IMG/VR virus record: IMGVR_UViG_3300036770_001924
Location: 1 to 37,418 of that record
Origin: a virus
Reading direction: 5' to 3' (one strand)
Length of the DNA stretch: 37,418 nt
This document shows positions 270-36,290 of the stretch, in pieces. The notes under the pieces were generated by a model. It was not told the origin of the DNA. It was given only the letters and a program-made list of their open reading frames with translations, and searched no databases. Both the position numbers and the translations under genes were made by a program. Numbering within the stretch: position 1 is the stretch's first letter; every line of letters begins with the position of its first letter.

Positions 270-439
270 CTACCTACAACAAGGCTTACTATGACACACC
301 CGCAGGTAAGGCTAAACAGAAGCGGGCAAACCAGCGGCTCCAGAACAAGCGCAAGCTTGCGTGGCTGTGGCTGGTGGAGAACCGTCCAGATGTAATCCAA
401 GAAATCAACAACCAAATCAACAAGGAGAACCAGCAATGA
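266..439 (+). CDS. small basic hypothetical protein (57 aa)
   Basis: GTG start overlapping the stop of the exonuclease gene (GTGA), and stop overlapping the start of the annealing-protein gene, so translation is probably coupled on both sides. The protein is rich in Lys, Arg, Gln and Asn, begins with a Tyr-rich segment (TTYNKAYYDTPAG) and continues as one long amphipathic helix with a WLWLVENRPDV segment. It could bind DNA or act as a partner of the flanking recombination proteins, but no family is recognised. Its reality is supported by exact overlap at both ends. Confidence 0.6.
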   Translation: MTTYNKAYYDTPAGKAKQKRANQRLQNKRKLAWLWLVENRPDVIQEINNQINKENQQ

Positions 440-1287
440 ACCTGCAAGACATCCTCGGCAAGTACGGGGTACCTGATCCGTCTATCGTCGGCAAACTGCC
501 TCGCGGTGGAATCACCCTTGACTTCGTGGGGCACGCTGAGATTACGAAGATTCTGATTGAGGTGGACCCGCAGTGGTCGTGGGAACCTGTCGCTTGGACT
601 ACTGAAGGCAGACCGGCTATCAACGTGGTCAACGGCATGGCTGTGATGTGGGGCAAGTTGACGGTGCTTGGGCAGTCACGCCTGGGTGTCGGCTCTGCGC
701 GCCACGACAAACCAGACCTCGACAAAGAACTGATTGGAGACTTCCTGCGTAACGCAGCCATGAGGTTCGGCATCAGCCTGTCGCTGTGGTCAAAGTCGGA
801 GTGGGAGGAGCAGCAGGCTGCACCTCGTAAGCCTGCGGAGCCGAAGCCTGTCGGTCAGGATTTCGTAGCCAAGTTCCGTGAGGCGTGCGACAAGAAGGGC
901 ATCAACCCTGATGAGGTGGCGAAAGCTGCTGGTGTGAATCTGGCTGAGGTGACTGATGCTGACGCACCGAAGTTGCGTGACGCCTTCAAGCAGGCAGAAG
1001 CCAAGCCTGTTGACATTGAGGCCGTCAAGCACGCCTTCGGTGAGCAGGTAAAGGTGGTGGCCGAGTCGAAGCCTGATAATCCTACGCCGAAGAATCCTGG
1101 TGAGCCGGCAACAAAAGCACAGATCGGCAAGATTCGTGCGTTGCTCAACGCCAAAGGCATCCAGTCGTTCACCGAGAAGACTGAGGTGTGCGCCGATCTC
1201 ATCAACCGCCCGATCAACAAGTTGGAACAGATGACTCAGGGCGAGGCATCGCAGTGCATCGACATCCTTGACGCGAGGGTGTCGTGA
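436..1287 (+). CDS. Rad52/Sak-like single-strand annealing recombination protein
   Basis: 283 aa from ATG 436, which overlaps the previous stop; this start fits better than an upstream in-frame ATG lying inside the previous gene. The N-terminal half contains LDFVGHAEITKILIEVDPQW followed by WSWEP, and later LIGDFLRNAAMRFGI. This resembles the Rad52/Sak arrangement of a duplex-opening domain followed by a DALKRALRxFG-type helix. The middle is a Lys/Pro/Ala-rich linker. The last 60 residues (TKAQIGKIRALLNAKGI onward) form a small helical domain seen at the C-terminus of other phage annealing proteins. The family role is to anneal complementary ssDNA produced by the exonuclease encoded just upstream. 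An alternative is an Erf-like protein with the same role. The assignment is by remembered family pattern, not a search. Confidence 0.6.
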   Translation: MNLQDILGKYGVPDPSIVGKLPRGGITLDFVGHAEITKILIEVDPQWSWEPVAWTTEGRPAINVVNGMAVMWGKLTVLGQSRLGVGSARHDKPDLDKELIGDFLRNAAMRFGISLSLWSKSEWEEQQAAPRKPAEPKPVGQDFVAKFREACDKKGINPDEVAKAAGVNLAEVTDADAPKLRDAFKQAEAKPVDIEAVKHAFGEQVKVVAESKPDNPTPKNPGEPATKAQIGKIRALLNAKGIQSFTEKTEVCADLINRPINKLEQMTQGEASQCIDILDARVS

Positions 1288-3593: not shown

Positions 3594-3735
3594 CCACTGC
3601 GGCACCGTCGTCGTCCACGACCGACGCAACAACGCCGGCTGCAACTGCGACCCCGACGCCCCACAATGGTGCTACATCCAACCCGACGGCAAAATACAAG
3701 GATTCAGCCAAGCAAGTTGGGAAGTCCTGCCGTGA
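3565..3735 (+). CDS. small zinc-ribbon-like protein (56 aa)
   Basis: ATG 3565 to TGA 3735; the stop overlaps the methyltransferase GTG (GTGA). It begins IRCNHCGTVVVHDRRN and then has CNCDPD, giving a C-x2-C...C-x-C zinc site, followed by a short strand-rich tail (WCYIQPDGKIQGFSQASWEV). This resembles small phage zinc-ribbon proteins. Translational coupling to the methyltransferase suggests shared expression; a functional link is not shown. Its CNHCGTV motif repeats that of the preceding micro-protein. Confidence 0.6.
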   Translation: MANETKIRCNHCGTVVVHDRRNNAGCNCDPDAPQWCYIQPDGKIQGFSQASWEVLP

Positions 3736-5309
3736 AAGTCCTTTCACTGTTCAGCGGTGTCGGCGGCTTCGACCTCGGCCTAGAAAACGCAGGTATGGAA
3801 ACCGTGTTCCAATGCGAATGGGACAAACACGCAACCAAAATCCTTGAACGCCACTGGCCGCACGTCCCACGCTGGGACGACGTATCCACCCTCACTGGTG
3901 AACACATCCTGCGACACGCACCAGTCATCGACGTCGTGGCATGGGGATCACCATGCCAAGACTTATCAGTCGCAGGAAAACGGGCAGGACTGCAAGGCGC
4001 ACGGTCAGGCCTGTTCCATGAAGGCGTCAGAATCATCAAAGAACTCAGGAGCTTGACTAATGGAAAATACCCAAGAATCTCTATTTGGGAAAACGTCGCA
4101 GGAGCCTTATCGTCCGGAGCAGGTGCCGACTTCGGGCAAGTCCTCACCGAAATGGATGAAGCAGGGGCGTGTTTCTCGGAATGGCGCATCCTGGATGCGC
4201 AATACTTCGGAGTCCCACAACGGCGTCGAAGAGTGTTCCTCATCTCTGTCTTCGATACTGCAACCGCAGCACGATGTCCCGACCCGCTACTACCTGTCAG
4301 CGAAGGCGTGCAGTGGCATCCTCAGACGAGCAACCAGGCGAGGCAAACAGTTACCGGCGAGACTCCAACAAGCACTAGAAGCCGTGGTGCAATCATCGGC
4401 TCAGACATCGTAGGACCATTGGCCGCCTCTGATTGGAAGTTTCCACAGCAACAGCAAGTTCACGAAAACAAATGCGTAGTGGAGACGTTCACCAAAGGCA
4501 AACGCCCACAAACCTCAACCGATGACGAAACATGGGACGAGAATCGACCAGCACCAACCATCAACGCCTTTGACCAGGGCGACACACGCGCCACCACCGT
4601 GATTGTGGAAGAGCCTGTGTTGTTGACGATGAGGGAAGGCAAACCAGGTGGCGGCAAAGGACCGCTACTGTCCACCGACAAATCGTTGAGCCTGCGAACC
4701 GGCAACGAACAAACCTTGTTTCAACCGAACGAAGAACCTGTGTTGTTGGATGGCACGCGAGTAGATGATGTGCGCGTCTACGACCCACCAGTGCAAACAT
4801 TGAAATCAAGAATGGGGACAGGTGGAAACAACGTGCCAGTCATCGGCTTCAGCCATACGCAAGGACTCTCAGCGCAACCCTCGGAAGATGCTTGGCCGAC
4901 ACTACGCACTGAAGGCAACGGCATGGCAGTCGCTTACGACGAATACAACGACAGTCTCGGCGGCGAAGTCCACCATGCGCTACGAGCAGGCACTAAACAA
5001 TCCACAGGCGTGATGGTCGAACCCGTAGAACCAGTTATGCCCACGCTATTGGCTGGAATGTCGCATCTCACCGGCACCACACAAGACGCATACATCAAAA
5101 CCATAAACTCCGTGTCACCCACGATGGCGGTGCGTCGCCTCACCCCACTCGAATGTGAACGGTTGATGGGCTGGCCTGATGACTGGACCGCAGGACAATC
5201 AGACACCCACCGCTACAAACAATGCGGCAACGGCGTCGCATCACCCGTCGCACAATGGATTGGGGAAATCCTTATCGCTACCGATAGCGCTACCGCTACC
5301 GACGCATGA
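3732..5309 (+). CDS. dcm: DNA cytosine-5 methyltransferase (Dcm-type)
   Basis: 525 aa from GTG 3732. C5-methyltransferase motifs appear in order: motif I LFSGVGGFDLGLENAG (SAM binding, residues 6-21), motif IV GSPCQDLS with catalytic C75, motif VI ENV (120-122), motif VIII QRRRRVFLI (163-171), and the motif IX/X region RRLTPLECERLMGWPDDW to KQCGNGVASPV near the C-terminus. Between motifs VIII and IX lies a long target-recognition region of about 270 residues made of degenerate P-T/L...G...V-type segments, much larger than in bacterial Dcm. The enzyme transfers a methyl group from SAM to cytosine C5 and would protect phage DNA from host restriction. No cognate endonuclease is in the window, so it is probably an orphan methyltransferase. 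Confidence 0.93.
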   Translation: MKVLSLFSGVGGFDLGLENAGMETVFQCEWDKHATKILERHWPHVPRWDDVSTLTGEHILRHAPVIDVVAWGSPCQDLSVAGKRAGLQGARSGLFHEGVRIIKELRSLTNGKYPRISIWENVAGALSSGAGADFGQVLTEMDEAGACFSEWRILDAQYFGVPQRRRRVFLISVFDTATAARCPDPLLPVSEGVQWHPQTSNQARQTVTGETPTSTRSRGAIIGSDIVGPLAASDWKFPQQQQVHENKCVVETFTKGKRPQTSTDDETWDENRPAPTINAFDQGDTRATTVIVEEPVLLTMREGKPGGGKGPLLSTDKSLSLRTGNEQTLFQPNEEPVLLDGTRVDDVRVYDPPVQTLKSRMGTGGNNVPVIGFSHTQGLSAQPSEDAWPTLRTEGNGMAVAYDEYNDSLGGEVHHALRAGTKQSTGVMVEPVEPVMPTLLAGMSHLTGTTQDAYIKTINSVSPTMAVRRLTPLECERLMGWPDDWTAGQSDTHRYKQCGNGVASPVAQWIGEILIATDSATATDA

Positions 5310-8213: not shown

Positions 8214-8864
8214 ATGAACACCCAAACCACAACCACCACCGCCACACTCACGGCACCACCCGACACCCTGCGCACAATCCTCACAGCCCTCGACCTTTAC
8301 ACGTCGAGCGACAAACACCGCGCCGCCCTCACCCTGACACGCGTGACGCCCGTGATCGTCGAACAACGCGACGCCGGCACACCACGCCCCACAGCGCTCA
8401 GGTTCGAGGCCACCAACAGCACCGAGCTTGTCGAAATCACCTGCGAGATCGGGCACACTCTCACCGAGCCGGCACTAATCGACCCCGCCGCGATCCTCGC
8501 CGCCATGCCCAAACGCACCGAGACAAAACACCACGCCGAGAGCGTGCTAACCCTGACGCCGGAAGCCTGGCACCTCACGCACGGAGTACGAACGAGCAAA
8601 GGCCCCGCAGCCGGCTCGCACACCTGGCCCAACACCTACGCCCTATGGCAAGACCAGCGCAGCAACCTCGCCCCGCACCTAATCGGCGCCCCAATGCTCG
8701 CACGCCTCGCCAAGCTCGCAAAGCACCTCGACACCGATCACGTCGAAGCCGCCAGCATGGCCCACACCGACGACAAACCAGACCCACGCCGGCCAATCGT
8801 CTACACCCTCAACACCGAAACACTTTCAGCCCGCGTGCTCATAATGCCACGCCGCCGCCACTAA
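8214..8864 (+). CDS. sliding-clamp-like protein (DnaN-related)
   Basis: 216 aa from ATG 8214 behind GAAAGG. The layout matches short phage relatives of the DNA polymerase III beta clamp: an N-terminal Thr-rich stretch, internal strands (ALRFEATNSTELVEITCEIG), DPAAILAAMPKR, a WPNTYALW segment, a helix (PMLARLAKLAKHL), and the ending RRPIVYTLNTETLSARVLIM. The ending resembles the clamp C-terminus (KPLxF...LLMPVR), where partner proteins bind. At 216 residues it is shorter than a bacterial clamp of about 370, so it probably has two domains rather than three. It may recruit the host or a phage polymerase to phage DNA. No polymerase gene is in the window. Confidence 0.55.
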   Translation: MNTQTTTTTATLTAPPDTLRTILTALDLYTSSDKHRAALTLTRVTPVIVEQRDAGTPRPTALRFEATNSTELVEITCEIGHTLTEPALIDPAAILAAMPKRTETKHHAESVLTLTPEAWHLTHGVRTSKGPAAGSHTWPNTYALWQDQRSNLAPHLIGAPMLARLAKLAKHLDTDHVEAASMAHTDDKPDPRRPIVYTLNTETLSARVLIMPRRRH

Positions 8865-8888
8865 CACCACAACACCCAACCCCCACGC

Positions 8889-8916
8889 AGGCCACCGGTG
8901 GCAACGCCGGTGGCCT
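8889..8916 (+). terminator. GC-rich hairpin, probable end of early operon
   Basis: A 10-bp perfect stem (AGGCCACCGG / CCGGTGGCCT) with an eight-base loop, starting 25 bases after the clamp-like gene. No T-run follows, which is common for intrinsic terminators in GC-rich genomes. It probably ends the transcript started near 7339. Confidence 0.55.
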
Positions 8917-9215
8917 TGCCGTACCCAGCCACACCCACACCCGCACGCGATAGGCGACACCAACACCGCGCCACCGTTGCCGCCGACCGTGGCCTACCGT
9001 GAGGCCTCATCGATCTAGCACCCTGCCACGTTGAGAGGTTGGCCGTATCGATCACGTCGCAACACCGCGCACACACAGCCGGCACACTGCCCCACGTCAC
9101 CACCCCACACCCCGAGGGTATGCCGACGCCAGGGGTCCAGAGAGTATGTATTAGTTGTTTTCTGTGTGGTCATTTTTGTGGGTGGCGGGTTGGTGGGCGC
9201 CGTGTATCGCACAGA

Positions 9216-9237
9216 GGGAGGTGGGGGAGGGAGGGGG
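9216..9237 (+). other. G-quadruplex motif
   Basis: Four G-runs (9216-9218, 9223-9227, 9229-9231, 9233-9237) with loops of four, one and one bases meet the usual G3+N1-7 rule. It lies in the G-rich half of the noncoding region. Folding in DNA or in a transcript is possible but not shown. Confidence 0.6.
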
Positions 9238-9311
9238 AGGTGAACGTTATCTTTTGTGCTGCGGTGACCTGGGCCTGTTCTCGAAGTCGTGTGTGTGGCA
9301 CCGGTAGCAAC

Positions 9312-9351
9312 CGAGCGCAGCGAGGGCGCTAGGACAACGAGCGTAGCGAGG
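9312..9351 (+). repeat. two 14-base direct repeats (iteron-like)
   Basis: CGAGCGCAGCGAGG (9312-9325) and CGAGCGTAGCGAGG (9338-9351) differ at one base and start 26 bases apart. The first overlaps a small hairpin (AGCGC...GCGCT, 9314-9330). They could be protein-binding iterons of an origin. Related GAGCGnAGCGAGG repeats are common in bacterial intergenic DNA, so specificity is uncertain. Confidence 0.55.
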
Positions 9352-9421
9352 CGTCAGGTATTTATTTAGCCCCCCAAGTTCTGTTTTACGCCTGAACCCG
9401 TCTGTCTTGATACCGAAAGAA

Positions 9422-9445
9422 GGCGACCACCTCCGGTCCCCTTTT
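9422..9445 (+). terminator. weak terminator-like hairpin
   Basis: An imperfect stem (GGcGACC / GGTCcCC, one C-C mismatch, six-base loop) runs directly into TTTT at 9442-9445. Stability is modest. It could stop transcripts crossing the noncoding region before the late operon. Confidence 0.35.
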
Positions 9446-9479
9446 CAGGCCACTATCGCGTGCGATCTAACCATGCTGC

Positions 9480-9502
9480 CCCAACCGATGATTGTGGTTG
9501 GG
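9480..9502. repeat. 7-bp inverted repeat
   Basis: CCCAACC (9480-9486) and GGTTGGG (9496-9502) flank a nine-base spacer. It may be a hairpin in RNA or a protein-binding dyad in the region between early and late genes. Confidence 0.4.
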
Positions 9503-9581
9503 AGGAATGTAATCGTTTAGCGTGCCGTATTCTTGGGGTGTTGTGCGCGTCTCTCGACGTGGCGATGAGAGTGTAGCAGGT

Positions 9582-9638
9582 GCCGGTCGGTGCCAACAAC
9601 CCGTTCGCAGGAACCCGTCTGCGATTACACCGACCGGC
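9582..9638. repeat. nested inverted repeats upstream of the late operon
   Basis: An 11-bp perfect outer stem (GCCGGTCGGTG 9582-9592 / CACCGACCGGC 9628-9638) encloses an inner 6-bp stem (TCGCAG 9605-9610 / CTGCGA 9619-9624). A third pairing, GTCTGC (9617-9622) with GCAGAC (9652-9657), competes with the inner stem. The element lies immediately before the first late-gene promoter-like box and start codon, so it may be an operator or a structured regulatory element. Confidence 0.5.
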
Positions 9639-9639
9639 G

Positions 9640-9650
9640 TGTGTTATCGT
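9640..9650 (+). promoter_or_regulatory. extended -10 promoter-like box, late operon
   Basis: TGTGTTATCGT contains the extended -10 form TG-T-TATCGT with no good -35. The last base lies 11 bases before ATG 9661, so a transcript would start at or very near the start codon. An almost identical box with the same spacing lies at 12144-12154. Confidence 0.5.
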
Positions 9651-9660
9651 AGCAGACACA

Positions 9661-10167
9661 ATGGCGCCTCGTAAGACGAATCGTAAGCCGAGTATGAGTG
9701 AGCAGCAGATTGACACTGGTGGCGGTAATCCGTTGAAGGGTTGGATTGCTTCTGGGAAAAAGGTTGTTACTCGTACGGTGAATAACGCGGCTCGTGATGT
9801 GGGTCGTTGGGTTGCTCCGACTCCTAATGCGCCGACGATGCCGAAATCGGGTGGTGGTTTGAAGTCGGTTCGTGGCGAGGTGTACACCCCTGGTGGCGTG
9901 TATCAGGGTCGTCAGGTGTTTGTTCGTAAGCCTGCTTTGACGGAGAATCAGATCGAGGGTATTTTGCGGGCGCAGCAAACGAAAGCGATGAAGCAGTTCA
10001 GTCGTGATGTTGGTACTGGTGCGCGTGCAGCGAAGATTGCTGGTGCTGTTGGTGCGTTGGGTGGTTCTGCTGCGACGTTGCAGGCTCAGAACATTGCTTC
10101 TGGTGTGAAAGCTGCTGTGTCGGCTGCGAAGAAGAAGGCTCGCGGAGGCGGAAAGAACAAGAAGTAG
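9661..10167 (+). CDS. basic hypothetical protein, first gene of late block (168 aa)
   Basis: Start at ATG 9661. An in-frame GTG at 9580 would run through the inverted repeats and is rejected. No ribosome binding site precedes the ATG, consistent with a leaderless message. The protein is basic throughout, with Gly/Pro-rich segments (GGGLKSVRGEVYTPGGVYQG), a helical region (LTENQIEGILRAQQTKAMKQ) and an Ala-rich C-terminus ending KKKARGGGKNKK. The position just before terminase is where a small terminase subunit often lies, but no HTH is evident here and the large subunit carries its own. A DNA-binding packaging partner or a virion protein are both possible. Confidence 0.6.
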   Translation: MAPRKTNRKPSMSEQQIDTGGGNPLKGWIASGKKVVTRTVNNAARDVGRWVAPTPNAPTMPKSGGGLKSVRGEVYTPGGVYQGRQVFVRKPALTENQIEGILRAQQTKAMKQFSRDVGTGARAAKIAGAVGALGGSAATLQAQNIASGVKAAVSAAKKKARGGGKNKK

Positions 10168-12143
10168 TGCCTGCTGGTCGTTCGGGGAGACGCCAAATCC
10201 CGCCACAAGACGTGGCCCGCTACTGGCAATCAAGGGCTGCCGGTATGTCGATGCAGGATGCCTCGAAGATTGCTGGGGTGCATGTCAATACTGCTTCGAA
10301 GTGGGAAGCTAAGCGGCGCAAGGCGCAGGCTGAGATGCAGCTTGCTGATGTGGAGTTGGGGAAAGCGAAGTCTAAGGGTGGTGGCCGTCAGGCTGAGGCG
10401 TGGAAAGCGACGATGGATGTCGCTGATCTGCCACCAGTTATCCCGTATGAGCGCCTGTCGCCGGAGGCTCAGCGTGGTTTGGAGGATTTTGATTTTTTTC
10501 GGCGCCGCTATTTGGGGCGTGTACCGTCTCCGTGGCAGGTTGATGCCGCGTACAAGATTGTGAAGATGTTGGAGTCGCCGGAAAAGGAGTTTATTTGCAT
10601 CAACTGTCCCCCAGGTGCAGGTAAGTCAACGTTGTTTCATGATTTTGCGGTGTGGATGATTTGCCGAAACCGCAAGATTCGTGTGCTTATCGGCTCGGCT
10701 ACACAGACGTTGGCGAAAATGTACAGCCGTCGTATCCGTGAAACGCTAGAAAGACCGTTTCCGTTGAATCCTGACCCAATCCTCGTGGAAAAAGGACTAG
10801 CACTCAACGCTGAGGGGTGTTTGTCTATCGACTACGGACGCTTCAAGCCGTCATCGAGTGGTGCGTTGTGGCGTGCCGAGGAGTTCATCGTCGAACAAGA
10901 AGACTTATCGGGCCTCGACAACAAGGAGCCGACTGTTTCGTCGTACGGTATTGACTCAGAGTTCATCGGACATCGTGCCGATCTCTGTTTGTTCGATGAC
11001 GTCGCAACCCCAGAGAACGCCAAAGAGTCCGTTGCACGTGACAAACTTTTGGAACGGTGGGATACCGTGGCTGAGGCACGCGTCGACCCAGGCGGCCTGC
11101 TCGCTGTCATCGGGCAGCGTTTGGGGCCAGGTGACCTCTACGCCCACTGTCTCGCCAAAGTGACCTACGAGGAAGACCCTGATGCGTATGACGGGTCCGA
11201 CGTCACCGACATTTCCGACGTCAAGGAACCAGAAAAAAAATCCAAGTACACCCACTTTATTTACAAGGCTTACTACGACGAGTTGGATACAGGTAGGGAA
11301 TCTCGTAAGACTACGGCACCACCGTGGCCCAACGGACCACTACTAGACCCGTACCGTTTGTCGTGGAAAGACTTGTCGTACCTGAAGCACTCCACGCCTG
11401 CGAAGTTTCAGGTGATTTATCAGCAGGAGGATTTGGCGCAAGGCCAATACCTGATTGAACGCGTCTGGGCGACAGGCGGCATGGGGAATGACGGCGTGTT
11501 GTATCCAGGGTGTATTGACGGTGACCGTAAAGCCGGATACATCCCAGGCGGTCTAGAGCCACCGATTATCTCTATTGCCTCGGTTGACCCAAGCCCCACA
11601 AACTTTTGGGCTGTCCAATGGTGGCTGTTCCAACCGTCCACGAATCTGCGGTATCTGATTGACGTTGAGCGCACACGGCTCACCGCTGAGGAGTTATTGG
11701 GGTTTGATACCAGCTCTCGACAGTACGGCGGCGTGATGGAGGTTTGGCAGAACCGTTCTTTCGAGATGGGCTACCCGATCTCCCACTGGATTGTTGAGGT
11801 CAACGCCGCCCAACGTTTCCTTCTTGCCCACGACTTCGTTCGCAAGTGGCAGGCGCTCCACGGGGTTCTGGTTGTTCCTCATACGACCTCCCGCAACAAA
11901 CTAGACGAAAACCTGGGCGTGGAAGCGTTGCTGCCTCCACTGTGGCGGGCTGGTCAGGTTCGCCTGCCGACGATGCGGGAGAACTGGAAGACGTTGGCTT
12001 TCATCGAGGAAATGTCCTCGTGGACTAGAAACAAAAAGAACGGTACGGACTTGGTAATGGCGCACTGGTTTGCAGAGTTGCACATGCCTCAGCTTGGTCC
12101 AGTGAAGCGTCCGCCGCGCATGTGGCGCCCTTCCTGGATTTGA
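10167..12143 (+). CDS. terL: terminase large subunit with N-terminal HTH
   Basis: 658 aa from GTG 10167, overlapping the previous stop by one base. An N-terminal helix-turn-helix-like segment (MSMQDASKIAGVHVNTASKW, about residues 27-46) is unusual for TerL and resembles a small-subunit DNA-binding domain. The ATPase follows: Walker A CPPGAGKST (147-155), the IGSATQTLAKM segment, Walker B LCLFDD (273-278) and a coupling-type QRLGPGDLY segment. The nuclease domain begins around SIASVDPSPTNFW (D474) with an RNase H-like first strand. The protein packages DNA into the prohead through the portal and cuts it. It lies in the usual place, two genes before the portal. Confidence 0.92.
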   Translation: MPAGRSGRRQIPPQDVARYWQSRAAGMSMQDASKIAGVHVNTASKWEAKRRKAQAEMQLADVELGKAKSKGGGRQAEAWKATMDVADLPPVIPYERLSPEAQRGLEDFDFFRRRYLGRVPSPWQVDAAYKIVKMLESPEKEFICINCPPGAGKSTLFHDFAVWMICRNRKIRVLIGSATQTLAKMYSRRIRETLERPFPLNPDPILVEKGLALNAEGCLSIDYGRFKPSSSGALWRAEEFIVEQEDLSGLDNKEPTVSSYGIDSEFIGHRADLCLFDDVATPENAKESVARDKLLERWDTVAEARVDPGGLLAVIGQRLGPGDLYAHCLAKVTYEEDPDAYDGSDVTDISDVKEPEKKSKYTHFIYKAYYDELDTGRESRKTTAPPWPNGPLLDPYRLSWKDLSYLKHSTPAKFQVIYQQEDLAQGQYLIERVWATGGMGNDGVLYPGCIDGDRKAGYIPGGLEPPIISIASVDPSPTNFWAVQWWLFQPSTNLRYLIDVERTRLTAEELLGFDTSSRQYGGVMEVWQNRSFEMGYPISHWIVEVNAAQRFLLAHDFVRKWQALHGVLVVPHTTSRNKLDENLGVEALLPPLWRAGQVRLPTMRENWKTLAFIEEMSSWTRNKKNGTDLVMAHWFAELHMPQLGPVKRPPRMWRPSWI

Positions 12144-12502: not shown

Positions 12503-14257
12503 TTGCGGTCGCTTGACGAAATCGTAGAACTGTACCACCAGCGCAGGCTGGCGGCTGGACCTGTTCATGAGCAGATGCGCCGTGTGCGCGACCTCGCCAA
12601 CGGTGACGTCGTGGTGCCGCTCAACGAGTTGGACCGCAATGCCAAAACGAACGTAGCGAACCTGCTCGTACAAGGGCTGGATCAGATGTCGATGCGCGTG
12701 TCCTCCACGATGCCATCCCCCTACTTCCCTCCCGTGAAAGAGGGTTCTGAGAACGCTAAGAAGATGGCGCGTATGCGCAAAAAGGCGATGCTTGGTTTCT
12801 GGGATGAGAACAAGATGCAGATGAAACTGCGTCGCCGCGCCCGACACCTCCTCGCCTACTCGTCCGCACCAGTGTTCATCAAACCCGATTTCGCCACGTT
12901 GACTCCGAAATGGGTGGTGCGTAATCCGTTGGACACGTTCGCTGCCCCGATGGAAGACGACGATGTAGTTCCAGAGAACTGCATCTTCACTTCCCGTGTC
13001 ACCGCATCATGGCTGTTGAAGAACTATGGGCCGATGGTTGCGGACCAGTTGCGTTTCGGTCGCGTTGACTCCGACTCCCGCTACACGCTTCTGGAATACG
13101 TGTGCGCAGACTCAATGCAACTCGTCGTTCTCGGCGCAGAAGACAACCCAGAACTGTCAGCATCCGAGCGTGCAGGTTTGGAAGCGATTCTTCTTGAAGC
13201 GATCCCGAATCGTGCCGGTATCCCACTCGCAGTGGTTCCGCAGCGCATTACTCTTGATAAGCCGCGAGGCCAGTTCGATGGCGTGCTTGGCATGTACTAC
13301 ACGCGTGCGCGTTTGCAAGCGTTGACGGAGATTGCGATTGAGCGCGGCATTTTCCCTGAGGAATACTTGGTTGCTCGCCCTGGCGAGAACCCTGAGATTC
13401 TTCAACTTGCTGATGGCAAGTCGGGAATCCTCGGTGTCGTCAAAGGTGGCGACATCCAGCAGCTGCAACTAAATCCTGGCTACAAAACCGACACAGCCCT
13501 TGACCGTTTGGAACGCCAAGAACGTCTTGAAGGCGCGATACCTGCCGAGTTCGGCGGCGAGTCCGCAACCAACATCCGAACCGGTCGACGAGGCGAAGCC
13601 GTCCTGTCTGCGACGGTGGATTACCGTGTGCAAGAAGCACAAGAAACCTTCGCCAACTCGTTACTGCATGAAGATAAAATCGCAATCGCACTAGAGAAAG
13701 CGTATTGGGGAGAACAGCCCAAAACGTTCTTTTTGAGTGGTCGTACGACACAGGGACAGGAAACGTACACGCCGAACAAGGTGTGGCAAACCGACTTCCA
13801 CTACGTCGCATACTCGGCTGCTGGCTCCGACGTGAACTCGCTCATCATCGGCTTAGGTCAACGCCTCGGTGTTGGTTTGATGTCGAAAGAGTCAGCTCGT
13901 GAAGCAGACCCACTTATCTCCGACCCTGACTTGGAGCATGATCGCATCATCGCAGAAGGCGTCGAATCTGCGCTCCTGCAATCCATTCAGCAGCAGGCCG
14001 CTAACCCTGAAGGTCCGTACCAGCCAGACGATCTCGCATACCTCACCAAACTCGTTGTCGAGCAAGATGTTCCGCTGTTTGAGGCGGTGGCTAAGACTGA
14101 TGAGCGTGCCCGCCAACGTCAAGCTGAGGCGATGCCTGCTGGTTCGCCTGAGACGATGCCAGGGTTGGCGATGCCAGGTATGGGTGCTGAGGCACCAGTC
14201 GCAGCACCAGCAGGCCCGCCACCTATTGAGGCTCTACTAGCGCAACTGGGGGCGTAA
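12503..14257 (+). CDS. portal protein
   Basis: 584 aa from TTG 12503, with an AGGGGG ribosome binding site upstream. The N-terminal region is typical of phage portals: a helix (LDEIVELYHQRRLAAGPVHE), RDLANGDVVVPLNELDR, then NLLVQGLDQMSMRVSSTMP. The middle has the NPLDTFAAPMEDDD and LAVVPQRITLD segments. The later part is helical (AIPAEFGGESATNIRTGRRG) and the C-terminus is Met/Pro/Ala-rich. The dodecameric portal forms the DNA channel and docks terminase and the tail. Gene order (TerL, small gene, portal) supports the call. The TTG start is accepted because no ATG or GTG fits the conserved N-terminus. Confidence 0.82.
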   Translation: MRSLDEIVELYHQRRLAAGPVHEQMRRVRDLANGDVVVPLNELDRNAKTNVANLLVQGLDQMSMRVSSTMPSPYFPPVKEGSENAKKMARMRKKAMLGFWDENKMQMKLRRRARHLLAYSSAPVFIKPDFATLTPKWVVRNPLDTFAAPMEDDDVVPENCIFTSRVTASWLLKNYGPMVADQLRFGRVDSDSRYTLLEYVCADSMQLVVLGAEDNPELSASERAGLEAILLEAIPNRAGIPLAVVPQRITLDKPRGQFDGVLGMYYTRARLQALTEIAIERGIFPEEYLVARPGENPEILQLADGKSGILGVVKGGDIQQLQLNPGYKTDTALDRLERQERLEGAIPAEFGGESATNIRTGRRGEAVLSATVDYRVQEAQETFANSLLHEDKIAIALEKAYWGEQPKTFFLSGRTTQGQETYTPNKVWQTDFHYVAYSAAGSDVNSLIIGLGQRLGVGLMSKESAREADPLISDPDLEHDRIIAEGVESALLQSIQQQAANPEGPYQPDDLAYLTKLVVEQDVPLFEAVAKTDERARQRQAEAMPAGSPETMPGLAMPGMGAEAPVAAPAGPPPIEALLAQLGA

Positions 14258-14632
14258 ATGAGTGACACTGCATACAACCAGGGACCAGCGATGATGGCTG
14301 CCCGCGGACAAACATACGGCAAACGCCAAGAACAGATGCAAGCACAGCAGGCTGTTCCGATGCGTCGAGCGCAAGGCGACACTTCTGCTGCGCAGGCAGC
14401 GAAAGAGTTTGCTCGCCCGATGCCGTCTGGTTCTCTGTTTGCGCCAACGGCACGCCCAACCGAACCGATCACTGCTGGCGCACCGTTCGGGCCTGGCCCT
14501 GGCCCCGCTGCGGCTGGTATCCCAATGATTACACCGGAACAGCAGGCGGTTCAGCAGTTGCGTCAGATTGCGGTCGTGTACCAGTTGGATGATTTGTTGG
14601 ATGCGGTTGACGCGTACGGAGACGAACTGTGA
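14258..14632 (+). CDS. hypothetical structural-block protein (124 aa)
   Basis: ATG 14258 follows the portal stop directly, and its stop overlaps the next GTG (GTGA). The protein starts with Gln/Met/Ala-rich low-complexity sequence (AMMAARGQTYGKRQEQMQAQ), has a Pro/Gly-rich middle (APFGPGPGPAAAG) and ends with a short helix (QQAVQQLRQIAVVYQLDDLL). The end resembles short helical tails of head-associated proteins. It could be a partner of the giant protein it overlaps. Confidence 0.55.
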   Translation: MSDTAYNQGPAMMAARGQTYGKRQEQMQAQQAVPMRRAQGDTSAAQAAKEFARPMPSGSLFAPTARPTEPITAGAPFGPGPGPAAAGIPMITPEQQAVQQLRQIAVVYQLDDLLDAVDAYGDEL

Positions 14633-17600
14633 GATGGGAAGCGAACCTAGACCCGCTTTCTAACGACGTCTACCTCAAAAAGAATCAGGGTGCCGCGCCC
14701 GATGCGTTTGTTGCACCTGATGTTGCTTCGAATCTTGCGCGAGTAAAACAGCGTGCCGGCTGGTTGTCGCCGCAGACGCAGATGGCTTTGGCGAAAGTCA
14801 ACGCTACGAACGAAGTGATTGATGCTGCTGGACGTTTGAAGGCTAAGCAGATTGCGGAGGCGCAGGTTGCACCGGATACTCGGTCGATCAAAACGAAGAT
14901 TTATGACAATGTGAAAGCGACGTCGCGGTGGGCTACTGCGGCTTTGAACTTCCTGCCCGAAACAACGCAAGGTGCGCTGGCGCAGTTGTTTGATGAGAAC
15001 GATGACATTGACGGATGGTTTATTCAGACGTCGTTGGGCACGATGATTGAGAACCCAGAGTTGCGTGGCGAAGGATTTTTCCTTTCCGAGGAAGGCATGA
15101 AGAAGCAGGCGGAACGCGCCCGCCGATACCGCGGCACCATCAACGGCTCAGCATGGACCGTGGGACGTGGCGCAGCAAACCTCGTCAACCTGCAACCAAA
15201 CACAAAACCGTACAACATCCTGTCCGGTGTCCTCGATGCGATGGTGATGATAAAAGCCGATCCGACAGGCCCAGTCACCAAAACAATTAGCCGCATCAAC
15301 AAGTCAAAAAACATGGTGCCGCTACTCACGAAAGCAGACATCGCACCAGAAATCACGAACTTGATGGAAGAAGCTGGTGTTGCACAGAACTCGCTTGGTG
15401 TCACCGTCAACGGCCAAAAGTTTTTGCAGTTCTGGGAACAGAACAAGCGGGCATCCGCCCTCGTTGACCGTCTGGTTAGCGAAAAGTCGGCGGTGAAAAT
15501 CGCTGACGAAATCTTTGACGGGCAACTTGACAACGAGATTGTGGCTCGTCTCGCTGACGCCGGCAACAGGGAAGAAGTGATTGACGCTTTGGCTGGCGGA
15601 TGGGTGATGGAGGACGGCGCTTTGTTCCGAGACATCCGCCGCTACCAGCGACCTGTGGCCCGCGCACTTGCCCCTGTGCAAGCGGTTGGTGACATCGTGC
15701 AAAAGATTCCTATGGTGGACGGAATCCGCAAATCACGCTGGTTCACCCAGATGCCCGACAACACCATCGTCGTCAACGGTACTGATGAAGACAACCGTAA
15801 AGCGGCAACAAACATCATTCGTTTCCTGCGCACCGCAAACGTGGACCAGGAAACTGTGGACATTCTTGGCGACCGAGCAATCCGCACGTTCCGTCAGGGG
15901 GCGACTGCTGCCGACAAAAAAGAAGTACTTGATCTGTTCAATACCACCGTGAGGTCTGCGTTGACCGCAAACGGCATGGATGTCGCGCTTGCGGACGACA
16001 TGATAAAGAAAGCCAACGAAGGTATTGACAGCATCCGCGCATACATGTTGAACCGCGAAGGTCGGGTCACCGACAACAAGATGTTCTCATTCCTTGCCAA
16101 CACCAACCACGATTATCTGCCAGCTGAAGAAATTGAGGCAATGGTCGAAGCCTTCGGCAACCCGCAGAACCTTGTCATCAACGGCCCGTTGGAGTTGTCT
16201 GAACTGTTGAACCGAGTCCATTTCCTGCCTGATGTGCGCGAGATTCGCCGCGCCACCAGCAACCCGTGGCTTTCGCGGATTACCAACGTTCGAGTGGCAT
16301 CCAAGTCAACTAAACGCGCTTTCACGGTCATCAAACCAGAACTGAAAGACGCCCACGACCAAGCAGTCGCCCGTCTCGCCGCGATAGCAGACCAGTATCC
16401 GCGCAAGTCCACGATGCCGCAAACCATCGCAGAAGAAGTTGTCACTCTCCAAAAAACGGTTGAGGACTCGAAGACGACGGTGATGCGCCGAGTCAACACA
16501 GGCGAACAGCGTGCAGCAATACAAGCGATTGAGCAGATACAGAACAGGATTTGGAAACCGCTTGCACTCGCCACCGGTGGATACGTGATGCGAAACAGCA
16601 TGGACGCCCAAGTTCGAATGGCGTTCGGCGGACTCAATTCGGCAATCACCCACCCATTTGAATACATCATGTTGGTGTTAGGCCAGTCGCAGCGTCGCAC
16701 AATCCGAGGCGACGTCATGGTCGGCTATGGGCAGACAGGCAAAATCTGGAACCGTATCGTCAACGGAACCAGCCGACTGTTAGGCGGCGACAAACTCGAT
16801 CTCATCGCGGAAGCCGACCAAACGACGATTGAACAAGCGTTGCGCCAAAACCTTCGTTTCGGTCTACGCGAACAAGGCATTGACGCACCTGACGCAGGTG
16901 AAATCTTGCGCAAATCAGGCGCTTGGCAACGCGCTACCCGCGCAGACGTCAACGGTTTGGAGTTCCACACCGACGGTGTGATGAACAACGGCGCCCTCAT
17001 TTTCGGTGACGAACTACAGAAGATTGCCGCGGAACATCTGTCATCTGGCGGTGACGCCAACGGTGCGGTTGCCCGACTCGTTGCGTACGCCAAATCCCGC
17101 CAAGACCTCCTTGACGAAATTGAATCTATTTACCAAAAAGGGTTGTCGGTCGTTGATCCTGCTACCGCCGAGAAATACAAGGTGCAAGGTTTCAAGCCGT
17201 TCAACCAGATGAACCGCGACGAACTCGATACTTTCTTGCAACAGCACATGCGCCGCATCGTCGTCGGCAACGTAGAAGTCCAGACAGGGAACCTGCCGGA
17301 CATGTTGTTTATGTCGGCGTTCAATCAGATACCTGTGACGACCGTGGAGAACGGTGTCGTCAAGCGTGTGCCGACTCTGGAACGCGCTGTAGACGATTTG
17401 GTGCTAGTCGGCAAAGAGGAAACCCCGCGTGTCGGTTCACTGGTGCAGATTGGTGAAGAACAGGTCGGCGTGGTAACAGCTTTCCGTGACGAGGTTGGCA
17501 CGATGCTTGACCCGTTCGCGGACGATTTGCCAGAAGTCCGCAACACTCTGGCCGTTATCACCCCAGTCACAGGTGAACTTGCGTTCGGCACGAATAGTCA

Positions 17601-19545
17601 GGGCGTCGGCGCGTCACGCCGCCTCGTGCGCAACATGCCGCTATGGGATGACGTCTCAAAGACAGGTTTGCCGCCAGTCGTAAAACGCGAAATCATGAAA
17701 CGGGAAGCCGACGAAAAAGAAGCCCTCTTTTCGTTCGCCACAAAAGAAATGGACAAGTTCACCAACTGGTTCTTCGGGGAACTTTACGCCAAAGCCACCA
17801 ATGTCCTTGACCGATCACCAACCTTCCGCCAGTTCTACGCACAAATCATCGCTGAACAAGCAGACATGCTCAGCCCAGAAGAAGCCGAAAAACTCGTCTC
17901 ACAAATCAGCAAGAGTGCAAAAGCATTGGGCATCAACGAAGCCCAGTATCTCGGCAGCAAGGAAACATGGAACGCGCTCAAAGCATCCCGCATGACCCCA
18001 GGCACCGCCACCGCACAAGAACTCGATGACTACGCCCGCTTCATGGCACTCGAAGAAACCAAAGGACTGCTGTTTGACGCATCAAACCGCACCAACCTTG
18101 AGGACGCGTTGCGCATCATCATGCCGTTCGCCCCAGCTTGGCGCGAAGTGTTGGGCACCTACATCGGCTTCCTCAAAGGAAACCCAATCGGTACCGCCCG
18201 ATCCTTCCAACGCGTCTACACCGGTGCCCTCGGCGCCGACGTCGATAACGACGGTCGCGGGTTCTTCTACTCGGACCCGACGACTGGCCAAAAGATGTTC
18301 GCCTTCCCAGGGTCGGGTACGCTCGCCAAGATTTTTACTGGCGTGAACGCACCGCTGGAAGCACCAGTGAAACGATTCTCGCAGGGCATCAACGCGTATC
18401 CGTCGCTTGGACCGATGATGCAGGTCGCCGCATCAGCTTTGCCTGACCGCCCCGAACTTGACGAAGTGAAAGAGTTCCTGTTGCCTTACGGCGAAAAAGG
18501 TTTAGGTACTGCGTTCAATCCTGTGCCGCAGTGGACCGACAAGTTCATCCAAGCAATCCGCGCCGACACCGGCAAACTCGACAACGTATTCGGCAACACC
18601 TACGTCGAGACGCTTAGGGCATTGTCGGCGTCAGGCGACTACGACCTAGATGACCCGAACTCGCTCAACCAGTTGTATGCCGACGCTAAATCGAAAGCCC
18701 GAATCTTGACGCTGATGCGTGCCGCATCACAGTTCTTGGGACCAACCGCCGGTGCGACCGAGTTCAAGATTCCCACCGAACAGGGCGACATGTTCGTGTC
18801 GGCGCTCGTCAAAGAGTTCTACGACCTGCAAGCCAAAGACTATGACACGGCTGTGCCGAAGTTCTTGGAGTTGTACGGCGACGAAGTAACCCTCTATGTG
18901 GCGTCTAAGACCCGTTCGTTGCAGGAAGGTTTGGAGGCGACCGAGGAGTTCTCTGATTGGGAACGCCGCAACGGTGACCTGTTGGCTCAATACTCCAACA
19001 CCGCCGCCTATCTCGCCCCAGCAGGCTCAGAGTTCAATTTCACTGTTTGGCAGCGCCAGTTGCAGCAAGGGAAACGTGAGCGTTTGACGGATCGAGAAAT
19101 CGTTGAGATTGCCCAGCAGCGCATCGGTTCATCCAAGTTCCGTGCCGCCCGTCGACTCGTCGGCCCGTACCCGAATGAAACCCAAAAGAACCTGTTGCGC
19201 CAGTACCGCGAATACCTGCACAGCCAGTATCCAGGTTTCCCGCTGAAAGCAGAGTTCACGGTCGGCAAGTTTGAGAACGATGTTGAAGAACTTCGCAACC
19301 TGATAGCGGACCCGCGTGTCGCAGACAACCCAACAGCTAAAGCAGTCAGCGAGTATTTGCAGTATCTCGATCAGGCTGTCGGCATCTATGTGTCGCGTGG
19401 CGGGCAGCCGTCGGGTTTCGCTACGGCGAAGTCTGCGGCAGCTCTGAGGGACGCTATGGCTAGTATTGGTGAAGCGTTGGCGCAACGGGAGCCAGGATTC
19501 TCCCGCGTGTGGCAGCGCCTATTGGCACAACAGGTTGAGGACTGA
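14629..19545 (+). CDS. giant virion-type protein (1638 aa), candidate internal/ejected protein
   Basis: The longest gene in the window, with a GTG start in a GTGA overlap. Mostly helical and Ala/Asn/Asp-rich. No transglycosylase, peptidase or polymerase motif is visible. The C-terminal third has distinctive segments (IIMPFAPAWREVLGTYIGFL, DVDNDGRGFFYSDPTTGQ, LLPYGEKGLGTAFNPVPQW) and ends with charged helices. Proteins above 1000 residues in a podovirus-like head block are usually internal virion proteins ejected into the host, or large polyvalent proteins. A tape measure is less likely because no major tail genes flank it. The place between portal and scaffold is unusual for T7-like internal proteins. 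The first third uses many G/T-ending codons and the rest more C/A, so composition changes inside the gene. Confidence 0.6.
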   Translation: MRWEANLDPLSNDVYLKKNQGAAPDAFVAPDVASNLARVKQRAGWLSPQTQMALAKVNATNEVIDAAGRLKAKQIAEAQVAPDTRSIKTKIYDNVKATSRWATAALNFLPETTQGALAQLFDENDDIDGWFIQTSLGTMIENPELRGEGFFLSEEGMKKQAERARRYRGTINGSAWTVGRGAANLVNLQPNTKPYNILSGVLDAMVMIKADPTGPVTKTISRINKSKNMVPLLTKADIAPEITNLMEEAGVAQNSLGVTVNGQKFLQFWEQNKRASALVDRLVSEKSAVKIADEIFDGQLDNEIVARLADAGNREEVIDALAGGWVMEDGALFRDIRRYQRPVARALAPVQAVGDIVQKIPMVDGIRKSRWFTQMPDNTIVVNGTDEDNRKAATNIIRFLRTANVDQETVDILGDRAIRTFRQGATAADKKEVLDLFNTTVRSALTANGMDVALADDMIKKANEGIDSIRAYMLNREGRVTDNKMFSFLANTNHDYLPAEEIEAMVEAFGNPQNLVINGPLELSELLNRVHFLPDVREIRRATSNPWLSRITNVRVASKSTKRAFTVIKPELKDAHDQAVARLAAIADQYPRKSTMPQTIAEEVVTLQKTVEDSKTTVMRRVNTGEQRAAIQAIEQIQNRIWKPLALATGGYVMRNSMDAQVRMAFGGLNSAITHPFEYIMLVLGQSQRRTIRGDVMVGYGQTGKIWNRIVNGTSRLLGGDKLDLIAEADQTTIEQALRQNLRFGLREQGIDAPDAGEILRKSGAWQRATRADVNGLEFHTDGVMNNGALIFGDELQKIAAEHLSSGGDANGAVARLVAYAKSRQDLLDEIESIYQKGLSVVDPATAEKYKVQGFKPFNQMNRDELDTFLQQHMRRIVVGNVEVQTGNLPDMLFMSAFNQIPVTTVENGVVKRVPTLERAVDDLVLVGKEETPRVGSLVQIGEEQVGVVTAFRDEVGTMLDPFADDLPEVRNTLAVITPVTGELAFGTNSQGVGASRRLVRNMPLWDDVSKTGLPPVVKREIMKREADEKEALFSFATKEMDKFTNWFFGELYAKATNVLDRSPTFRQFYAQIIAEQADMLSPEEAEKLVSQISKSAKALGINEAQYLGSKETWNALKASRMTPGTATAQELDDYARFMALEETKGLLFDASNRTNLEDALRIIMPFAPAWREVLGTYIGFLKGNPIGTARSFQRVYTGALGADVDNDGRGFFYSDPTTGQKMFAFPGSGTLAKIFTGVNAPLEAPVKRFSQGINAYPSLGPMMQVAASALPDRPELDEVKEFLLPYGEKGLGTAFNPVPQWTDKFIQAIRADTGKLDNVFGNTYVETLRALSASGDYDLDDPNSLNQLYADAKSKARILTLMRAASQFLGPTAGATEFKIPTEQGDMFVSALVKEFYDLQAKDYDTAVPKFLELYGDEVTLYVASKTRSLQEGLEATEEFSDWERRNGDLLAQYSNTAAYLAPAGSEFNFTVWQRQLQQGKRERLTDREIVEIAQQRIGSSKFRAARRLVGPYPNETQKNLLRQYREYLHSQYPGFPLKAEFTVGKFENDVEELRNLIADPRVADNPTAKAVSEYLQYLDQAVGIYVSRGGQPSGFATAKSAAALRDAMASIGEALAQREPGFSRVWQRLLAQQVED

Positions 19546-23522: not shown

Positions 23523-24497
23523 ATGTCCAAGACACAACAGAGCAGCCTGCTCACAGACCAGGTTGCATTTGACAGGATTGCGTACTTCGCACTCCGCAGC
23601 GAACTTCTGTTCGACGCGGTTGCAGACGTGATGCCGGTCGCACAAGCAATGCCAGGCTCATCGGTCAAGTTCACGATCTTCAACGATCTGAGCGAGAAGA
23701 CCTCGACCCTGACGGAAGACACCGATGTCACCCCAGTGGTGATGGGTGACTCTCAGGTCGAAGTGACCCTTGAGGAGTACGGCAATGCTGTCAACACCAC
23801 CGCCAAGTTGCGTGGAACTTCGTTCCTTGACGTGGATTCGGCAGCCGCCAACCTGGTTGGTTACAACGCCGGCATCTCCATTGACGGAGTTATCCGCGAA
23901 GTGCTGTCGGCTGGTACCCACGTCGTCTACGGTTCGGGTGGCGCAGACCTCCCGTCCTCGCGTGCGACCGTCGGTTCCGATGACAAGATCAAGGCGAACG
24001 ACGTCCGCAAGGTTGTCGCCGCTCTCCGCAAGGCCAACGCAGTGTCGTTCAACGGCATGTACATGGGCTACATTCACCCCGACGTGAGCTACGACCTCCG
24101 TTCGGAGACTGGTGTTGCTTCGTGGCGTGACCCGCACGTGTACAGCGATCCAGCCAACATCTACAACGGCGAAATCGGAGCCTTCGAAGGTGTGCGTTTC
24201 ATTGAGACGCCGCGTGCGAAGATTTTCGAGAACGCCTCGGATGGCTCTGGTTCTTCGACGGGTTCGTCGGCAACGGTGGACGTGTACTGCACGCACATCG
24301 CAGGCCGTCAGGCTCTGGCGAAGGCGCACAGCATCGTGGATGGCAACGGCGCGTTCCCGCGTGTCGTTCGCGGTCCGGTGGTGGACGTCCTCCAGCGCTT
24401 CCAGCCGGTCGGCTGGTACTGGCTCGGTGGCTACGCCCGATTCCGCGAGGCTTCGCTGCGTCGCATCGAGTCGGCGTCAAGCATCGGCGCAAACTGA
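23523..24497 (+). CDS. major capsid protein, N4-gp56 family
   Basis: 324 aa from ATG 23523. The N-terminal arm leads into LTDQVAFDRIAYFALRSEL, then MPGSSVKFTIFNDLSEKTST and VEVTLEEYGNAVNTTAKLRG, a pattern characteristic of N4-gp56-type HK97-fold capsid proteins. The P-domain-like part contains GMYMGYIHPDVSYDL and GEIGAFEGVRFIETP. The C-terminus has VGWYWLGGYARFREASLRRI. It follows the scaffold and precedes a strong terminator, so high expression of a short transcript is likely. A Ser/Gly loop (SDGSGSSTGSSA, about residues 240-251) could be surface exposed. Confidence 0.9.
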   Translation: MSKTQQSSLLTDQVAFDRIAYFALRSELLFDAVADVMPVAQAMPGSSVKFTIFNDLSEKTSTLTEDTDVTPVVMGDSQVEVTLEEYGNAVNTTAKLRGTSFLDVDSAAANLVGYNAGISIDGVIREVLSAGTHVVYGSGGADLPSSRATVGSDDKIKANDVRKVVAALRKANAVSFNGMYMGYIHPDVSYDLRSETGVASWRDPHVYSDPANIYNGEIGAFEGVRFIETPRAKIFENASDGSGSSTGSSATVDVYCTHIAGRQALAKAHSIVDGNGAFPRVVRGPVVDVLQRFQPVGWYWLGGYARFREASLRRIESASSIGAN

Positions 24498-33300: not shown

Positions 33301-34212
33301 GTGACTTTGCGTTGGGGTCAGCGTGAGCGTGTGGGGGAGTACACGGCTAACTGGTTGTCGCCCAACATCCCTGTCGAGTATTTGATTGTCGCTGGTGGCG
33401 GTGGTGGCGGAAAATACGACTCTAACAATGCTGCGGGCGGCGGCGGCGCTGGCGGCTATCGTTCGTCGGTGGGTGGCGAAAACTCTGGTGGTGGCGCATC
33501 GGCGGAAAATAATAGCGCCATAACTATCGGAACATACACAGTTACCGTTGGCGGTGGCGGCGCGGGTGCAACAACCGCAGCCAATGGAACCACTGGAAGC
33601 GATTCCGTATTTGCGACCATTACGTCGTCTGGTGGCGGCGGCGGCGGTGGTTTGGGGGCAGGTAGCAACGGTGGTAGTGGCGGCGGTGGTAGTGGTGCCG
33701 ACGGCGCAGCCTGGTCTGGTGGCAGTGGTACAAGCAATCAAGGTTATGCGGGCGGCAGCACTGTTTCTGGTGGTTCGTTCCCTGGCAATCGTCAAGGTGC
33801 AGGTGGCGGTGGTGCTGGAGCAGTTGGGACAAACGAAGTGAACCAGACGTCAGCAGGTAACGGTGGCGATGGTGTTTCTTCGTCAATAAACGGTTCCGCA
33901 ACGACACGCGCGGGCGGTGGTGGTGGCGGGAAAGAAGGTTCTGTTACTTCTGGTGGTTCTGCTGGTTCTGGTGGTGGTGGCGCTGGTGGTGCCGCGAGCG
34001 GTAACGGTTCGGCTGGTACCGCCAACACTGGTGGCGGTGGCGGTGGTGCTGGTGCTGGTGGCAATGGTGGTGCTGGCGGCAAAGGTGTAGTCATTGTCCG
34101 TTACCGTACCGACATCGCCAAAGGCCGCAGCATCACAGGCGGAACTATTACGACGTCTGGGGATTGGACGATTCATACGTTCAATGACACGGGTAGTTTG
34201 GTGGTCGCATGA
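33301..34212 (+). CDS. glycine-rich tail fibre / adhesin, copy 1 (303 aa)
   Basis: GTG 33301. N-terminal anchor (TLRWGQRERVGEYTANWLSP), then VEYLIVAGGGGGG, then about 220 residues dominated by Gly runs of 3-7 with Ala/Ser/Asn, then KGVVIVRY, ending with GGTITTSGDWTIHTFNDTGS. Glycine-rich fibre domains of this kind can fold as polyglycine-II sandwiches and act as receptor-binding tips (known for T4-like gp38-type adhesins); here that is inference. The gene overlaps the next, paralogous gene. Repetitive Gly codons make assembly errors possible. Confidence 0.75.
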   Translation: MTLRWGQRERVGEYTANWLSPNIPVEYLIVAGGGGGGKYDSNNAAGGGGAGGYRSSVGGENSGGGASAENNSAITIGTYTVTVGGGGAGATTAANGTTGSDSVFATITSSGGGGGGGLGAGSNGGSGGGGSGADGAAWSGGSGTSNQGYAGGSTVSGGSFPGNRQGAGGGGAGAVGTNEVNQTSAGNGGDGVSSSINGSATTRAGGGGGGKEGSVTSGGSAGSGGGGAGGAASGNGSAGTANTGGGGGGAGAGGNGGAGGKGVVIVRYRTDIAKGRSITGGTITTSGDWTIHTFNDTGSLVVA

Positions 34213-36043: not shown

Positions 36044-36290
36044 CATCATGCTCAAAGCCAACGCCACGGTAGCCAAGTTCCTAGACCTGGGGCAGCGCCT
36101 GTTCTCCCTGTTCCTCGCCAACGCCCTGCCTGCTGTCACCGGTGGCGCAGTGATCGGCGTGTCGGTCGCCAAGTCCGCGATGCTCGCTGGTTTCATGGCT
36201 TGCGTCCAAGTCATCCAGAAGCTTGCCGCTGCCTCGACTGATGGCGAGTTGACCAAAGAGGAAATCCAAGAGGCGTTCGGGAAGAAGTAA
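36036..36290 (+). CDS. second holin-like membrane protein (84 aa)
   Basis: ATG 36036, overlapping the previous gene by eight bases. An N-terminal amphipathic helix (KANATVAKFLDLGQRLFSLF) leads into a hydrophobic region (LANALPAVTGGAVIGVSVAK, SAMLAGFMACVQVIQKL) and an acidic tail (DGELTKEEIQEAFGKK). It could be a holin, an antiholin or a pinholin partner of the 55-aa protein. The stop overlaps the endolysin start (TAATG). Confidence 0.55.
   Translation: MTDIMLKANATVAKFLDLGQRLFSLFLANALPAVTGGAVIGVSVAKSAMLAGFMACVQVIQKLAAASTDGELTKEEIQEAFGKK

Follow-up and report, generated by a model that had tools for sequence, protein, structure and literature searches.

Many uncultured phages carry a previously uncatalogued RNA at the start of their virion-gene block. 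In the phages that carry it, the RNA is 170-220 nt long and lies at the late-operon head, and we have hardly any doubt that it is real and structured. It constitutes a new RNA family with strong covariation support, in a phage group whose members in this analysis all come from metagenomes and which is apparently of Actinobacteria. We observed it in a virus record of IMG/VR (37,418 bases, no end repeat), analysed at its full length and hereafter called the window. The RNA lies in a gap (8865-9580) without a gene of ordinary size, part of a region that a sequence-only reading had called noncoding. That reading had singled out the gap for a sharp reversal of base composition and had proposed an origin or a transcription boundary; spotting a composition flip by eye can uncover a functional element missed by gene-finding.

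Gene blocks on the two sides of the gap

The features of the window are collected in Table 1. The main genes all run rightward, with small early-type genes likewise on the left of the gap and tail-side proteins also on its right. This split into an early and a late block is kept in nearly all relatives, and the gap contains a promoter-like stretch, a conserved motif and the structured RNA, which reads into the late genes. Because of these two observations, the gap is very probably the junction between early and late transcription, so that the boundary part of the earlier proposal is well supported.

Table 1. Positions of the features in the window
Feature	Position	Strand	Remarks
RecT-like annealing protein	361-1287		left of gap, early block
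C5 cytosine methyltransferase	3666-5309		left of gap, early block
Final early-block gene, 216 aa, C/A-rich	8214-8864	+	no PHROG or Pfam match
C/A-rich noncoding left flank	8865-9113		poorly conserved in most relatives
Motif AGGGTATGCCG, family GGGGTMTGCC[GT]	9115-9125	+	at the skew minimum, ~250 nt left of the RNA
G/T-rich noncoding block	9144-9260		sequence conservation among near relatives starts abruptly at ~9144
TATGTAT, -10-like stretch	9145-9151	+	picked by eye
Structured RNA, type A	9366-9535	+	covariance model R1, 192 bits
RNA helix 1	9389-9393 pairs with 9421-9425	+	alignment columns 24-28/57-61
RNA long imperfect hairpin	9457-9522	+	four paired segments: 9457-9459/9520-9522, 9463-9466/9512-9515, 9472-9477/9504-9509, 9480-9486/9496-9502
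168-aa protein	9661-10167	+	no family match
Large terminase (TerL), T7-maturase-B-like, 658 aa	10167-12143	+	N-terminal helix-turn-helix-like segment
Portal	12503-14257		late block
Major capsid	23523-24497		late block
VanY-type endolysin	36290-36889		late block

No DNA match to the window was found among 50,697 phage records, and a search of phage isolates and plasmids gave no DNA similarity of value. By TerL protein, the nearest isolates are the Streptomyces Beephvirinae, at ~27% identity. The window TerL matches T7 maturase B and one phage TerL in the PDB; its predicted structure had a mean pLDDT of 48.6, which is too low for use. A small terminase subunit was not recognised in the window, and the helix-turn-helix-like segment of TerL (10167-10360, residues ~13-62) could perhaps replace one. 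There is no space for a counterpart of the 168-aa gene in those relatives where the RNA lies only 38-150 nt before TerL. A 1638-aa protein encoded after the portal region (14629-19545) has no PHROG or Pfam match and is possibly a large virion or ejection protein.

A structured RNA in two phage groups

The region of the gap is strongly conserved in relatives, which speaks for the sequence-only reading by one of its own yardsticks; its conserved part consists of the RNA and the motif, both of which that reading had passed over. When the gap was compared by BLAST with the terminase relatives, 9365-9580 was far better conserved than its flanks, the wider conserved stretch around the RNA being 9361-9582. 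The form present in the window (type A) was detected by nhmmer in 30 loci besides the window. An exact-core scan returned 53 IMG/VR stretches and none in the collection of bacterial and archaeal genomes. A prophage context was likewise rejected, as the genome collection gave one weak terminase match and no type A core.

Among 43 unique type A sequences, the strongest covarying column pairs showed 2-4 pair types and were Watson-Crick throughout, or almost throughout, the rows. The structure was built on 42 of the 43 unique cores (40 of them distinct); L095 was omitted for its missing end pattern, and the cores of L002, L075 and L093 were left out as too short or incomplete. It comprises 24 pairs, with 97.8% of the cells paired. 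Changes on both sides were observed at 11 pairs (129 cells), and this cell count dropped to at most 13 when the partners were slid by 1-3 columns. RNAalifold had paired columns 57-63 with 112-118 of alignment A1; we adopted columns 24-28 with 57-61 of alignment A4 in its place because the changes there match. Coding was rejected, as stops occur in 35-42 of the 42 rows in five frames and in 21 of 42 in the sixth; the core length, varying from 166 to 170, also counts against it. Single-sequence folding was unremarkable (z of -1.0 on the plus strand and -0.8 on the minus strand), so the argument for structure is one of covariation.

The hairpins reported by the sequence-only reading are indeed present in the gap. 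Its two 14-base repeats found weak support: a repeat search gave a 28-nt pair (9389-9416 and 9606-9633; 75%) having GAACCCGTCTG in common.

Relatives without type A have another conserved block in the same place (type B), which starts with CCCCCCACG and includes UUUAGCCGACACC. For type B1, 27 of the 31 unique sequences were aligned, with L033, L041, L050 and L074 omitted by choice. We observed 30 pairs (97.2% paired), of which 20 had changed on both sides (141 cells, reduced to at most 18 with slid partners). Each type has a single invariant U-G or G-U pair (40/40 in type A, 27/27 in type B1) with G-U variants elsewhere, which argues for RNA rather than DNA. Type B2 is intermediate, and the type A model gives weak matches (E 0.09 to 3.8). 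Since types A and B share little sequence, their homology is argued from their place, the common start UUUAGCC and these weak model matches, the best of which has an E of 0.09.

An RNA of type A, B1 or B2 was found upstream of TerL in 76 of the 80 terminase relatives (29 A, 39 B1 and 8 B2), in all cases on the TerL strand; two of the four relatives without it have just 52 and 120 bases in front of TerL. Scanning with the type B core gave at least 120 IMG/VR stretches, of which 80 loci were taken. Among those listed, TerL lay downstream of the RNA in 72 of the 80 further type B loci, and on the opposite strand in none. Eight had no match to the window TerL: five of these end within 900 nt, L217 and L258 carry another terminase, and L237 lies on a contig having that terminase (L345). 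The distance from the RNA to TerL varied from 38 to 1891 nt (some contigs being counted twice), and several relatives have no gene in between (gaps of 38-150 nt). In Rfam 15 the window region had no match up to E 1 and locus L076 none up to E 5, while L040 matched only below the gathering scores. Our search of open-licence papers found no report of such an RNA upstream of the terminase in these phages.

The RNA is not confined to one terminase. In L217 and L258, the type B RNA goes together with a Terminase_3/6C terminase and a P22-like portal, in the order RNA, SSB, WhiB, a small gene and terminase, with the portal in the same operon. A search with this terminase gave 37 loci, including L345. 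Type B2 RNA was present in 14 of them, 2.5-3.5 kb before the terminase and on the same strand; of the 23 loci without it, six are genuine misses with over 3.6 kb of upstream sequence, and the others are too short to judge. The occurrence of the same RNA type with unrelated terminases suggests a shared RNA-based step in late expression or genome handling, which is testable with cultured actinophages. WhiB points to actinobacterial hosts. Being encoded near the operon head of this second group, the phage WhiB could itself be a late regulator there.

The composition switch and the conserved motif

The base counts of the sequence-only reading were exact (15 G and 29 C in 8881-8940, 37 G and 7 C in 9181-9240), and the reversal that it described is the strongest switch in the window. 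Cumulated along the window, the GC skew is lowest at 9113, the global extremum by which that reading had proposed to judge the switch. The 1-kb left/right skew jump at this point was 359, followed by a next peak of 140, and none of 500 block shuffles reached it (block sizes 100, 300 and 600; top shuffled value 347). As also claimed, the flanking genes are C/A-rich on the left and G/T-rich on the right on the coding strand. We observed the same at third codon positions, with GC and TA skews of -0.52 and -0.80 for the ORF 8214-8864, and of +0.56 and +0.66 for the ORF 9580-10167.

The cumulative maximum is at 35010, inside two adjacent glycine-rich paralogues (33301-35141, PF21722, 50% identical). 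As the third-position GC skew of these genes is negative, the maximum is an effect of amino-acid content and therefore not a terminus partner for an origin.

We compared the switch in 28 near-complete records, comprising the window and 27 relatives; of the 31 records listed, G002 and G009 were left out, and in G021 no RNA was mapped. Of the 28 records, 17 have the top GC-skew jump of their genome no more than 300 nt from the motif, and 11 have the cumulative minimum there. Nine records represent the distant clade (G022-G030), and just one of these has its top jump near the motif, although the motif and the RNA are kept. For the second terminase group, eight loci were compared: the jump close to the RNA was the largest of its locus at four of them and ranked in the top 5% at the remaining four. 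From this distribution, the flip tracks the junction rather than the motif, and neither the motif nor the RNA needs it. The skew was thus rejected as a functional feature, the distant clade being mostly without the flip.

The motif belongs to a partly symmetric family and keeps a constrained distance of 115-567 nt to the left of the RNA. At 105 of 115 loci it scored higher than any shuffled sequence, and the same was true at 63 of 75 further type B loci. With the first matrix, the window copy scored 9.1, slightly below the shuffled maximum of 9.4; a matrix rebuilt from the first-matrix matches gave it 16.2. Copies with one mismatch are present elsewhere in the genomes, so the motif is distinctive by its place and not by its letters alone. 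As a DNA hairpin, it was no better than shuffles in the window, and this candidate was dropped.

The motif goes with the terminase family, occurring mostly at T7-like TerL loci. None of the 14 RNA-bearing loci of the second group had a motif score above the shuffled maximum (best 6.7 versus 9.1), at least four of them having less than 410 nt left of the RNA, which shortened the search there. Hence, the motif accompanies the T7-like terminase, whereas the RNA does not depend on it. Most likely, the motif would be either a site recognised or cut by its accompanying terminase or an operator of the late promoter; we lean slightly towards the terminase site.

We also considered contig ends as proof of a cos site. 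In 26 of the 80 relatives the contig ends less than 2.4 kb before TerL, but these ends are scattered, and they cluster in or near the RNA and not at the motif; seven (L002, L004, L017, L033, L060, L075 and L078) lie within ~100 nt of the RNA start. Because of the scatter and of the ends inside the RNA, which fit assembly breaks at sequence shared between strains, they were rejected as termini. Five records (G010, G015, G022, G024 and G028) have identical ends of 123-127 nt that look like assembly overlaps. Since this end repeat equals the assembly k-mer size, these are probably complete circular maps of ~38-40 kb. The break of G022 lies ~10 nt from a motif copy in that record's own coordinates. 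In the distant clade, the early block is closed directly left of the motif by terminator hairpins that are very strong (to -36 kcal/mol) and carry T-runs; they were seen in L073, L080 and L081, ~150-170 nt left of the RNA.

Possible roles of the RNA

The reading that we favour, with about even confidence, is that of a cis-acting late leader resembling an antiterminator. The gap would then comprise, from left to right, the end of the early block, the motif, a promoter-like stretch and, at the late-operon head, the structured RNA. The RNA would be the 5' leader of the late transcript and would act in cis, keeping the host RNA polymerase from pausing or terminating, with read-through of some 25 kb of late genes as the result; the composition flip would be a by-product of the junction, retained in part of the lineage only. 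Transcription of the RNA, its action in cis and the role of the motif are what we infer from comparing sequences. A plus-strand intrinsic terminator between the RNA and TerL was found neither in the window nor in 62 of 71 loci. A cis leader is the simplest terminase-independent role, given this lack of a terminator, the late-strand position at the operon head and the variable distance to TerL. By eye, many relatives show TAT-rich strings like TATGTAT at 20-30 nt to the right of the motif. Against a leader, the sigma-70 scan gave no promoter, and the RNA of the second group is remote, at 2.5-3.5 kb before its terminase.

The terminator-like sites found between the RNA and TerL in the remaining 9 of 71 loci would fit a free small RNA equally well. 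Such an independent, trans-acting RNA at the late switch, targeting for example the host RNA polymerase or mRNAs, would agree with a self-contained and highly conserved fold whose distance to the next gene varies. The RNA invariably occupies the operon head on the strand of the late genes, and most loci have no terminator right behind it; we regard this explanation as improbable. Compensatory changes taken alone fit single-stranded DNA as well as RNA, and the place adjoins a possible terminus; thus a purely DNA element (terminase site or origin) with hairpins acting as single strands might be imagined, having no RNA function. The invariant U-G and G-U pairs and the additional G-U variants in both types, together with a strand fixed relative to the late genes, make it very improbable indeed. 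For a replication origin, at which the RNA or its transcript would prime or control bidirectional replication and leave the skew minimum behind, the skew sign fits on both sides, as do the minima and top jumps near the motif (11 and 17 of 28 records) and, in the second group, which lacks the motif, the jump beside the RNA (locus maximum in 4/8). Nevertheless, the skew fades within ~2-6 kb in both directions, the counterpart extremum at 35010 reflects amino-acid content, and eight of the nine distant-clade records keep the RNA without the flip as their top jump. The origin half of the sequence-only proposal is therefore retained only as an unlikely explanation.

The RNA might instead act in trans in the DNA-packaging motor, as the pRNA of phi29 does, with the motif marking an adjoining genome end. 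The likeness is one of place: an RNA of ~170 nt lies near a possible genome end and packaging genes and starts 115-567 nt right of a conserved site, and the phi29 pRNA is put at 147-320 from the left end, and called unique to those phages, in one account (PMC11476376). Also in favour are the several relatives without a gene between the RNA and TerL, the failure to recognise a small terminase subunit, and the arrangement in the Streptomyces Beephvirinae, in which a repeated genome end and a leader with covarying hairpins precede TerL as the first gene. However, the type B RNA also accompanies the unrelated Terminase_3/6C terminase with its P22-like portal, and the window TerL resembles T7 maturase B, for which we know of no RNA part. 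The partner is thus not a phi29-type packaging ATPase in either group, the RNA adjoins TerL in one group and is 2.5-3.5 kb off in the other, and Rfam gave no pRNA match. We give this reading little weight. A broader proposition, that in at least two uncultured phage lineages with unrelated terminases the RNA is indispensable as a component either of a packaging motor or of an RNA-based late-gene switch, is possible and is offered tentatively. If true, RNA-dependent packaging would extend beyond phi29-like phages, or actinobacterial phages would possess an RNA antiterminator.

GOLLD and ROOL are structured noncoding RNAs found in environmental phages. Compared with these and other large phage RNAs, the RNA described here is much smaller, is tied to the head of the late operon and has no Rfam match. 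The put RNA of HK022, a processive antitermination leader of ~70 nt, is likewise a structured RNA at a phage operon head on the strand of the operon, the cis action on RNA polymerase being in our case a proposal. The window RNA differs from put in its larger size, in heading the late operon and in belonging to phages with actinobacterial signs (WhiB). The genes on which put acts are early ones, in a lambdoid phage (PMC9378689).

In the Streptomyces Beephvirinae (Immanuel3, Abafar and others), a TATAAT-like promoter and covarying hairpins are followed by a related terminase as the first gene, and by eye this leader lies behind a repeated genome end. Model R1 did not match it. Loci L198 and L200 are the first 700 bases of Immanuel3 and Abafar, and L198 had no Rfam match above threshold. 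The covariation comes from 10 sequences, in which most predicted pairs are invariant. It is apparently an undescribed structured leader; the leaders of these Streptomyces phages are possible structural analogues of the window RNA, and they offer a cultured test case.
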